A stretch of DNA of 64,000 nt, taken from Vitis vinifera. Taxonomy: Eukaryota; Streptophyta; Magnoliopsida; Vitales; Vitaceae. The stretch is taken from positions 22,602,001-22,666,000 of the forward strand of contig NC_081819.1 of assembly GCF_030704535.1 (NCBI RefSeq), read 5' to 3'. The translations under genes and the position numbers were made by a program. Positions 15,738-35,836 of this stretch are shown here, one piece after another (positions within the stretch are counted from its first letter, which is position 1; each line of letters starts with the position of its first letter). The notes under the pieces were generated by a model. That model made no database searches. It had not been told where the DNA came from and saw only the letters and a list, made by a program, of their open reading frames with translations.

Positions 15738-18700
15738 ATGGCGTTTTCTCCCGCTCATTTTTTCCAGAGTGTGTGGACTCTAAATGCTCATTCTAATGTT
15801 GCGAGGGCTTGGTTATCGCCACCCGTGGTATCACATACCCTATCAGCTTCTCGGAGACTCTCTTCTCCATTCTTGATCTCTGCACAGTACAATTCGCGTC
15901 GCTTAAACGGAGATTTCGTATCATCTACTGTTCGTTCTCCGATTTCAACTAAGGTGACAAACGGAGGAGAGAAAACTGAGGATCATCCTATGGATACTGT
16001 TGATGATAATAAGGTGAAGTTATACTTTTCTCTCTTTCATTTTCTAGATTTGTTTTTAACATTTAAATATTAATTTCTTTGAGATTCTTTTTTTTTTTTT
16101 TTTAAATAATCTTTTTTGAGCAATTGCAATTTGAACTCCCGGTCTTTTCAATTTGAGGTGGCAGAAGGTATCTATGGTGATTATATAGTAATATTTCATA
16201 GTTCTGAAAGAGCCTGAAGGTATTTGTCCTACGATGAGGCGAGGTAAAACTGTGAATATGTGAATTTTAAAGATTTTCAGAGTAAAAAATCTACAAAGAA
16301 GCTTTTATTCAACCTCTATTTCAGAGTTTGAGCAGAGTCTTTGAGATCTGTGGAGAATGTCTAATGAGAGCCTCAGACCTAGGTGTAGGAGCATTTGGTA
16401 ACTTAAGCCTCAAGTCTGTGCCCCAAGCTCGAGGTGATTTCCTTGGGCCTTCGGTTGAGGTGTCCTCAATCTGTATGCCTCGTTGGTTTTAAAACCATAA
16501 TACTCACATGTAATGCCAAAGAGGTCTTGATACAACGCCTTGCAAAGAAAAAGAATAATTCAAAAAAGAGTAGAAATGTCCTAGAAATGAAAGTAAAACT
16601 ATAGTAACAGTAAACTAAAGTGTATCATAACTTTTATTTATAATTCAGGTAAAATTGGTGGTTAGAGAGAGGTATGTAAACTTGTTAGGACAAGGTTAAA
16701 TGGAAAGAAATTGATGCGAATGATGTTAATTGGTAGAAGAGCTAGGGTGTGAGAGTTTGAGCAAAGGATGATGATATCAACAAAAGAAAGAGTAGTTATT
16801 TTTAGAAATTATTACATAGAAATCATGTTATTAGAAAAATGCAATGAAGTGTGCAAAATTAGTGATTTTTGGTATTCTTGTAGATTAAGGTGTTTGAAGT
16901 TCGAGAAATTTTTGAAGAAAATGGAAGTGATAGGGCTTGGCTTGGTGCTATTCCAATTGAAGTTGAATGTTTATTAGAGATGATGTTGACTGATTTATTC
17001 AACATGATTATAAAAACTAATGACATAATTGAAATATCAGTCTGATTATAATTGCAGTAATTTTTACAAGGATCCATAGCTCCACGGATCTATAGCCGAT
17101 GTTTATTTCTTAATTGCATCATTGTTTTGAAAAGTTTCTTAAGATGATTCTCATGTGGCCGTTTTTTTATAAAAAAAAAAAACACTTTCTCTCTGTTTTT
17201 ACAGATTGCAGATGGGCCCTTAAAGTTGCAGGAGCGTGATTTTGCTGGTACCCCATATGTTCCTGTATATGTGATGCTACCCGTGCGTTACTCTAATTCT
17301 ACTCATGTTTTGTCACTATTCACATTTAGACTTTTTTCTTTTTCATCTTAAATAGGCTGTATTTATTTCAATAATTTCTAATTTTTGCCTGTTTTCTAAC
17401 TCAGTGTGTAAATCACTCTTCAGAACTTCCTTTTTGTAATCTGGGATCATGGGCTGAGTTGTTTAAATTTTCATTTGTGGCATTTTTCTGTTAGTACATA
17501 ATTTATTCCACCATGAAGATGTATGTTTTTTAAATATATTCTCATTTCTGTTGTTTGTGGGGAGCAGCTGAGCGTTATCAATATCAACTGTGAGTTGGTT
17601 GATCCAGATGGTCTGGTACATCAGCTAAGGATCTTGAAGTCCATTAATGTTGATGGTGTTATGGTTGACTGCTGGTGGGGAATAGTAGAAGCACACACTC
17701 CACAGGTTTACAATTGGAGTGGCTACAAGAGGCTCTTTCAGATTGTGCATGACATTCAGCTTAAGTTACAGGTGAGTAGAATTTCACCAATGCTGTGATT
17801 CTTGTTTCAGCATTCAATATCTCTGCCTATTGATGTTTCCCTGCTTTCAACCTGTATTGATAACACAATGTAAAACGTGCATTAGGGAATTGATTTATGT
17901 TAAGCATTTTAGCAAACCAAGAACATTTCTCCAAATGTTATATTTGGCTCCAATACCCGCTCCTAGGTTGGTAAAACTCAAGTACAAATGATAGCTCCAA
18001 AGGAATCCATTTTATTCTGATGCAGACAGTCTTCTAAGAGATGAAAATGGACAATGGGTAAATAGATTCATTTCCAATCTGGGTATCTGCACAATGATAC
18101 AGGCATATCTTTTTGGTCCTTGTGATGTGATTTAAGATCACTTAGAGGTCCAGGTATCAAAAAATCTTAGTAGAAACAGATTGCTACTAGTCATTAACCA
18201 TTTGGAAAAACCTGTCAGTGGACTGCTGTGGTTCCCTTTTGAAATCTCACTGGGAATGGAATTGCAGATTAAAGTGTTTACATAGAGAAGCTACCAACTG
18301 TGCACCCGTTTGGCAATCCACTCTGAGGGTCTGGAACAATGCCTTTCTTTGTTGCCTGTGTAGCGTTCTGATATTAGAAAGCCTTCTGAGACATGACTGT
18401 AGGGGCTTTTGGTCATCTTTGTTGTTTGTTGCTTGGCCAAAACCAGAAAAAGGAGGTTAAAACCCAAAGGAGCAGAAGCAGCAGCAGGAGATTTCTTGGC
18501 AATGGATATGGTGAGAATAGAATACATCAGTTTGTATATTGATGAGTGCTCTCTCAAAGAGCTCAAGAGTATGGGATTTTTATGCTTGCAGAAGTCCCAA
18601 AGGGTTGAATTGGACTGTAGGATCAGCAAAAAGTTTGGAACAAGAGTGTTTTTATTAGAGAAGAAAGGGAAGCTTGAGATCAAAACACATCCCCAGCCTT

Positions 18701-34600: not shown

Positions 34601-35836
34601 CATTTTCATTATTAGAAGACTTTTGTTAAGAAAAATACATCGGTCATTTGCAGGTATTGAATGCTGCATGGGATGTCTGCATACCAGTTGTCAGTGAGAA
34701 TGCTCTTCTTACCCATGATAGAGAAAGCTATAACAAGATATTAGAGAATGCCAAGCCTCTAAACGATCCAGATGGGAGGCATTTTTCATCGTTCACCTAC
34801 CTTAGACTCAGCCCACTTCTCATGGAAAGACACAATTTTCTTGAATTTGAACGATTCGTCAAGAGAATGCATGGTAAAACACTCAATACATTGTTCATTT
34901 TATTCCCATTTAAATTTTTTACTAATCATTACATGTCTATGGATTTTCTTAGATGTTGTTTGTGTGCCTGTTTAGTAAGAAGGGAACTAATTACTCAGTC
35001 AATTGATTTTCCTAATCCTAGGAGGCAAAATCCTTGCCTATGATTAGTAGACTGCCCTGTTTGTCTCCCTGACATTAGATATCATAAACTCTTAAATTTG
35101 CATATTGGCTCCATCGCAAGACCATTGAAAAGGGACACCATGTGGCCTTGTAGGAACACACCCTCCTTAACGACCTATAAGACTCAAGGTCTATATTCTC
35201 CAATCCTAAATAGAGAAGTCTGCATAAATTTTATGAAATCTTAAGGTTATGTTTGGTTCTTGGAAAGAAAAAAAAATAAAGAGGAAAATTATAAGAAAAG
35301 CTAGAAGTAAAGAAACCTTATAAAATTTTCTTTTGTGGTGGTCCATGGAAAAGTTGAAGGAAAAAAATTTAATTATTGAGAAATGCACTTTCCCTAAATT
35401 TTCCTTGCCTTTATATAAGGAAGATAATTTTTTTTTTCTTTATCTTTTTCCATACATCCAAGCATAAAAAAATAATTTTGCTTAACAATTTTTTTTCCTT
35501 ATGCTTTTCAAGAGCCAAACATCCCCTAACAGTGGTTCTGGATCATACATCCAAACTAAAAGGACAAATAACAAACGACTAACATAAGACAAAATTGATT
35601 TGTTTCAGCAGCTATGTCAAAAAAACGATGAGAAAATTCTCACATTACGGTCTGTAGATTTATATAAATAGAACCGAAGCCAACCTTTTCTTATGAATAA
35701 GTTTAACTGGAACTGATTCACATTGTTCTAGCCATTTTTATGACATTTTGAAGATAGTGATTAGTTGGAAGGAAATTATGATTGATTTTATTTCTATTCC
35801 ATTGCAGGGGAAGCAGTTCTCGATCTCCAGTTATAG
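25655..35836 (+). CDS. BZR1-BAM transcription-factor-type beta-amylase (BAM7/BAM8 type)
   Basis: Ten exons: 25655-26092, 27985-28275, 28811-28888, 29210-29413, 30360-30554, 31162-31326, 32671-32931, 34262-34480, 34654-34873 and 35808-35836, giving 699 aa, the usual length for BAM7/BAM8. Residues 13-36 are a dense acidic run. Residues 76-146 are the BES1/BZR1 DNA-binding domain ([52 protein letters not shown]). Residues 147-243 are a Ser-rich linker, and the rest is the glycoside hydrolase 14 domain with both catalytic glutamates (Glu436 in GPCGELRY, Glu632 in VVSENAL). Arabidopsis BAM7 and BAM8 are nuclear and control growth genes through brassinosteroid-linked G-box elements. Whether this protein cuts starch is not decidable from motifs. 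Long introns at both ends of the linker exon leave room for an alternative start. Confidence 0.95.
27090..27145 (+). mobile_element. Micro retro-insertion (28 nt, poly(A)) with 14-bp target duplication
   Basis: ATTAGTTTAGAAGC occurs at 27090-27103 and again at 27132-27145. Between them is only ACTTAACT followed by a run of A. A poly(A) end with a 14-bp target duplication is the signature of LINE-driven insertion of an extremely 5'-truncated copy. It lies in intron 1 of the BZR1-BAM gene. Confidence 0.65.
32092..32530. repeat. Tandem duplication of about 215 bp in intron 6 of the BZR1-BAM gene
   Basis: Two adjoining copies begin with 'tttttgaactcctattgt' (about 32101 and 32318) and end with 'ttactagtgcctctgttgct' (about 32283 and 32507). 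They share nearly all sequence between, with small changes. Confidence 0.9.
35245..35526. mobile_element. MITE with TAA target duplication in intron 9 of the BZR1-BAM gene
   Basis: The left end is GGTTATGTTTGGTTCTTGG. The right end, read on the other strand, is GGGGATGTTTGGCTCTTG. TAA lies on both sides (35242-35244, 35527-35529). The 3-bp TAA duplication suggests a PIF/Harbinger type. Confidence 0.65.

Follow-up and report, generated by a model that had tools for sequence, protein, structure and literature searches.

The two beta-amylase genes that lie side by side in the window analysed here (64,000 nucleotides of Vitis vinifera contig NC_081819.1, positions 22,602,001 to 22,666,000; coordinates below are those of the window) are most probably a BAM2-BAM7 tandem pair derived from a duplicated dual-function BZR1-BAM gene, an origin to which we assign a probability of roughly 0.88. 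The upstream gene (gene A) would have kept the plastid start and the downstream gene (gene B) the BZR1 exon. The starting point would have been the tandem duplication of a dual-function BZR1-BAM gene in an ancestor common to many eudicots. Of the two copies, the upstream one would have retained the internal start and transit peptide while losing the BZR1 exon, so becoming the plastid BAM2, and the downstream copy would have retained the BZR1 exon while losing the internal plastid start, so becoming the nuclear BAM7. The two genes, their homology, a closed reading frame ahead of the second exon of gene B and the active-site residues were seen in the window; the location and activity of the proteins, the existence of a dual-function ancestor and the timing of the event come from published work or by inference.

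Gene A lies on the plus strand, with its start codon (ATG) at 15738 and the last base of its stop codon at 22534, and has nine exons (15738-16013, 17205-17282, 17568-17771, 19045-19239, 19534-19698, 19925-20185, 20310-20528, 21250-21469 and 22488-22534) that specify 554 amino acids. Gene B, on the same strand at 25655-35836, has 10 exons (25655-26092, 27985-28275, 28811-28888, 29210-29413, 30360-30554, 31162-31326, 32671-32931, 34262-34480, 34654-34873 and 35808-35836) that specify 699 amino acids. Both models were built from splice sites and the open frame, and GT...AG borders are present at all eight introns of gene A and all nine of gene B. The Pfam domain Glyco_hydro_14 (PF01373) is matched with 361.8 bits in gene A and 351 bits in gene B, and BES1_N (PF05687) with 132.7 bits in gene B only, PF01373 being the sole domain of gene A at E up to 0.01. 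The BES1/BZR1 match spans residues 75-211 of the gene B protein, across exons 1 and 2, with its bulk in exon 1 (25655-26092), and the protein also matches the BZR1-type PDB chains 5zd4 and 7vn2. Gene B is a BAM7-type BZR1-BAM, in which a BES1/BZR1 domain is fused to a GH14 beta-amylase domain, and gene A is BAM2-like, with a GH14 domain and no BZR1 domain. By definition BAM2 is a plastid, tetrameric beta-amylase with K+-dependent sigmoidal activity and BAM7 a nuclear, DNA-binding protein, and the two make up clade VII. The initial annotation had proposed tandem copies with their roles split between a gene without and a gene with the BZR1 domain, a proposal that is supported and already in print (PMC10400028). 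A tandem repeat of ~220 bases, 89.9% identical, is found at 32087-32531, inside intron 6 of gene B.

Exons 2-8 of gene A are the same as exons 3-9 of gene B in length (78, 204, 195, 165, 261, 219 and 220 nt) and in start phase. The last exons have a common start phase and differ in length (47 versus 29 nt), and the earlier statement that exons 2-9 of gene A match exons 3-10 of gene B in length and phase is thus right for seven of the eight pairs and, for the eighth, right in phase only. The amylase parts of the two proteins are identical at 370 of 453 positions. Over 447 codons, with 365 amino acids identical, dS was 0.96 by NG86 and 0.77 by YN00, dN was 0.10 and 0.12, and dN/dS was 0.11 and 0.15, respectively. 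With dS of 0.77-0.96 and dN/dS of 0.11-0.15, the duplication that gave rise to the pair is old and under purifying selection. Per-exon NG86 dS, computed for the question of gene conversion over seven exons, ranged from 0.48 (exon 5 of gene A) to 1.98 (exon 2 of gene A).

We take genes A and B to be the published chromosome 15 pair VvBAM2 and VvBAM5, on the basis of lengths, order and spacing; the sequence analysed here may belong to another assembly. VvBAM2 (GSVIVT01026920001) is given as 554 amino acids at Chr15 19379225-19386528, with AtBAM2 as homologue, and VvBAM5 (GSVIVT01026922001) as 699 amino acids at Chr15 19389359-19399834, with AtBAM7 as homologue (PMC8004407); protein lengths, order, spacing and Arabidopsis homologues are those of genes A and B. 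The span from the start codon of gene A to the stop codon of gene B is 20,099 bases, compared with 20,610 for the published VvBAM2-VvBAM5 coordinates. VvBAM2, VvBAM5 and VvBAM6 fall into one group in the published grape tree (PMC8004407). The tandem pair has already been described, as a case of gene splitting to which the window adds another sequence, the only extra detail here being a nearby partial copy of gene A.

The first exon of gene A (15738-16013) appears, from alignment and shuffling, to be the linker exon of the BZR1-BAM gene with a different 5' end. Its translation aligned with linker exon 2 of gene B (27985-28275) with a local score of 73 against a shuffle mean of 26.8, a score reached by none of 2000 composition shuffles, and its alignments with the other nine exons of gene B were not above chance (142 to 484 of 500 shuffles reached the score). 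The signal is confined to residues 39-92, and residues 41-92 alone scored 70 (0 of 2000 shuffles). Residues 1-40, which are transit-like in composition, had no likeness to linker exon 2 above chance, with a score of 19, a shuffle mean of 21.1 and 1445 of 2000 shuffles as high. The initial annotation had aligned this exon with the linker exon, an alignment that survives for residues 39-92 and fails for residues 1-40. Residues 1-60 contain one acidic, five basic and 13 Ser/Thr residues, a description of composition only. Composition shuffles were the only controls used for these and for the intron and BZR1-remnant comparisons below.

The source of the transit-like peptide bears directly on the origin of the pair. 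In maize, BAM7 has two start sites that produce a long nuclear form and a short plastid form, the short form starting in intron 1 with a cryptic transit peptide (Ozcan and Monroe 2023, as described in PMC10400028). Exon 1 of gene A seems a better fit to this maize layout, in which the peptide lies ahead of the linker, than to a linker turned into a peptide. The latter was the origin put forward previously, according to which gene A is a copy of a plain BZR1-BAM gene that lost the BZR1 exon and whose linker became a transit peptide after the duplication. The homology of residues 39-92 to the linker exon would agree with it, as would the derivation of BAM2-like genes from BAM7 through loss of the BZR domain in Thalmann et al. 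2019 (PMC6394054), but residues 1-40 are unlike the linker exon and the maize plastid form is already made from sequence ahead of the linker (PMC10400028). We consider this origin unlikely, and the linker was probably the wrong source for the transit peptide. With the maize peptide encoded ahead of the linker, the plastid form would be older than the duplication, and its loss would have taken place in gene B.

There is no agreement on a single event common to many eudicots. BAM2 and BAM7 as separate genes are said to have had four independent origins, and in most eudicots BAM2 is reported to lie immediately upstream of BAM7, which suggested that a dual-function gene was duplicated in tandem and its roles divided (PMC10400028). 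The disagreement arises because BAM2-like genes are polyphyletic in Thalmann et al. 2019, where the BAM2 of the Brassicaceae and Cleomaceae is the only one to form a supported subclade, placed within BZR1-bearing genes (PMC6394054). Polyphyly would be compatible with a tandem duplication that took place in the grape lineage alone, independently of the other eudicot BAM2/BAM7 pairs, and so would pomegranate, whose beta-amylase family is reported to be without duplication events (PMC11125002), a point that we also count against a shared dual-function origin. A duplication private to grape is nevertheless decidedly improbable, since the dS values indicate an old event, the arrangement of BAM2 upstream of BAM7 is stated for most eudicots, and comparable tandem pairs are known, by description, from jujube (PMC9195466) and cassava (PMC10080747). 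In favour of the duplicated dual-function gene we count the 554 and 699 amino acid lengths and the similar span of the published pair, the domains, the identity of the amylase parts and their common best PDB match, the landmark residues shared by both proteins (see below), the old and constrained divergence, and the jujube and cassava pairs.

The reading frame upstream of linker exon 2 of gene B is closed by an in-frame stop ending at 27975, three codons before the exon. Simple read-through into exon 2 consequently cannot give a plastid form of the maize type; starts elsewhere are possible. The closed frame is consistent with gene B having lost the plastid form. A remnant of the transit peptide was sought in intron 1 of gene B and was not above chance (120 of 300 shuffles as high), which counts against the duplicated dual-function gene. 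A scan for cryptic first exons, defined by an ATG, at least 25 codons and a phase-0 donor preceded by G, found none in intron 1 and one in intron 2 of gene B, where shuffles gave 0.67 and 0.27 on average; the scan is weak, as it recovered the true exon 1 of gene A in a control but the count of one was reached by 33% of shuffles. BZR1-like sequence near gene A did not exceed chance in either of the two stretches scanned, 13400-17204 (21 of 100 shuffles reached the score) and 1-5900 (71 of 100).

Fourteen positions of soybean beta-amylase were compared, 12 of them presumed by us to be active-site residues, and the remaining two, E186 and E380, taken from papers. Counted over this set, gene A keeps all 14, gene B keeps 13 (the exception being S297A) and PDB chain 7upv keeps seven. 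Gene B retains E380, so the poor conservation of this residue typical of the BAM7 clade is not seen in it; poorly conserved E380 and inner loop are given in print as typical, not defining, of that clade (PMC6394054). Loss of the inner-loop threonine in gene B was considered and ruled out by numbering against soybean. The AtBAM2 landmark residues W449, W456, S464 and D490 (PMC6102588), mapped by their spacing (7, 8 and 26), have counterparts in W465, W472, S480 and D506 of gene A and in W616, W623, S631 and D657 of gene B. All four appear to be present in both proteins and would not separate BAM2 from BAM7.

The best PDB match of both genes, among 29 for gene A and 31 for gene B, was 7upv (641 and 637 bits), followed by soybean beta-amylase (513 and 491 bits). 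With soybean as outgroup, gene A has eight unique changes and gene B 15 (chi2 2.13); with 7upv as outgroup, the numbers are 20 and 18 (chi2 0.11). The amylase part of gene B bears no significant sign of decay, in contrast to the poor BAM7 conservation described in print. The absence of decay is another point counted against the duplicated dual-function gene. Given that gene B keeps 13 of 14 pocket positions and the four BAM2 landmarks and shows no significant excess of change, we tentatively raise the possibility that the duplication split addresses only and not chemistry, and that gene B may be a transcription factor that is catalytically competent or senses glucan, in contrast to Arabidopsis BAM7 with its low activity. 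With its near-complete active site, gene B could allow the role of the amylase part in the nucleus to be probed where that part is undecayed.

The initial annotation correctly saw the two genes in the window and missed a partial tandem duplication upstream of and within gene A. By self BLASTN, 737-7625 matches 10286-17019 in several blocks, the downstream copy including exon 1 and 1006 of the 1191 bases of intron 1 of gene A. A minus-strand gene of the Neprosin family lies within the duplication (PF03080, detected in the upstream copy). The copies have diverged unevenly: identity is 84.7% in the Neprosin part (2020 columns) and 94.8% around exon 1 (862 columns, 29 mismatches). The upstream copy carries a second BAM2 exon 1 at 6041-6316 on the plus strand, 268 of its 276 bases being identical to exon 1 of gene A. 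The eight base differences cause seven amino-acid changes, the frame is open for 92 codons and the GT donor is kept. No further BAM2 exons follow it, the match in the self-comparison ending at 7625/17019. Ahead of the extra exon the self-alignment breaks at 5226/15330, at an LTR-like insertion (TG...CA, 5227-5897, ends set by eye) that has TAATC and TGATC at its sides and contains TATAAAAG at 5678; a second copy of the insertion was not found in the window. About 287 bases of sequence that are intact upstream of gene A (15331-15617) are missing ahead of the extra exon.

The likeliest reading of 6041-6316 is an orphan exon. It could instead serve BAM2 as a functional alternative first exon, with transcription beginning in the LTR-like insertion, which supplies TATAAAAG, and with splicing across ~10.9 kb to join it to exon 2 (17205), as the 92 open codons and retained donor would permit. 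We regard this as very unlikely indeed, for seven of eight differences change an amino acid, as would be expected of unconstrained sequence, the ~287 bases of upstream sequence are gone, and both a copy of the Neprosin-type gene and exon 1 of gene A lie in between; that the frame is still open after eight changes is no surprise. For VvBAM2, gene models or the mapping of reads could be led astray by this nearby partial copy.

Other features of the window include a repeat of ~225 bases, possibly a MITE, with inverted-repeat character and three copies (3215-3449, 12314-12540 and 13687-13921; about 81-88% identical). A direct repeat of ~4 kb, 99.2% identical, occupies 50965-54983 and 59975-64000, where it reaches the end of the window, and a ~690-base element occurs three times (53146-53838, 55099-55789 in inverted orientation, and 62163-62855; 97.8% identical), two of the copies lying within the 4-kb repeat. 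Part of a class 3 lipase gene is encoded on the minus strand at 40856-41575 (PF01764, PF03893). A lipase gene presumably also lies beside Arabidopsis BAM2. No tRNA genes were found in the window.

Tandem beta-amylase pairs like that of grape have been described elsewhere, and were compared here by description. The jujube genes ZjBAM3 (549 amino acids) and ZjBAM4 (703 amino acids, predicted to be nuclear) are adjacent on one strand (PMC9195466), and cassava MeBAM4 and MeBAM5 are in tandem, MeBAM5 having a BZR1 domain (PMC10080747); the classification of ZjBAM3 and MeBAM4 as BAM2-like is our own inference. The dual-function BAM7 of maize is like the grape system in having a BZR1 exon followed by other exons and an amylase part, and in its plastid form, which starts inside the gene (PMC10400028). 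Maize BAM7 is one gene with two forms, whereas grape has two separate genes and a closed frame ahead of the linker exon of gene B.
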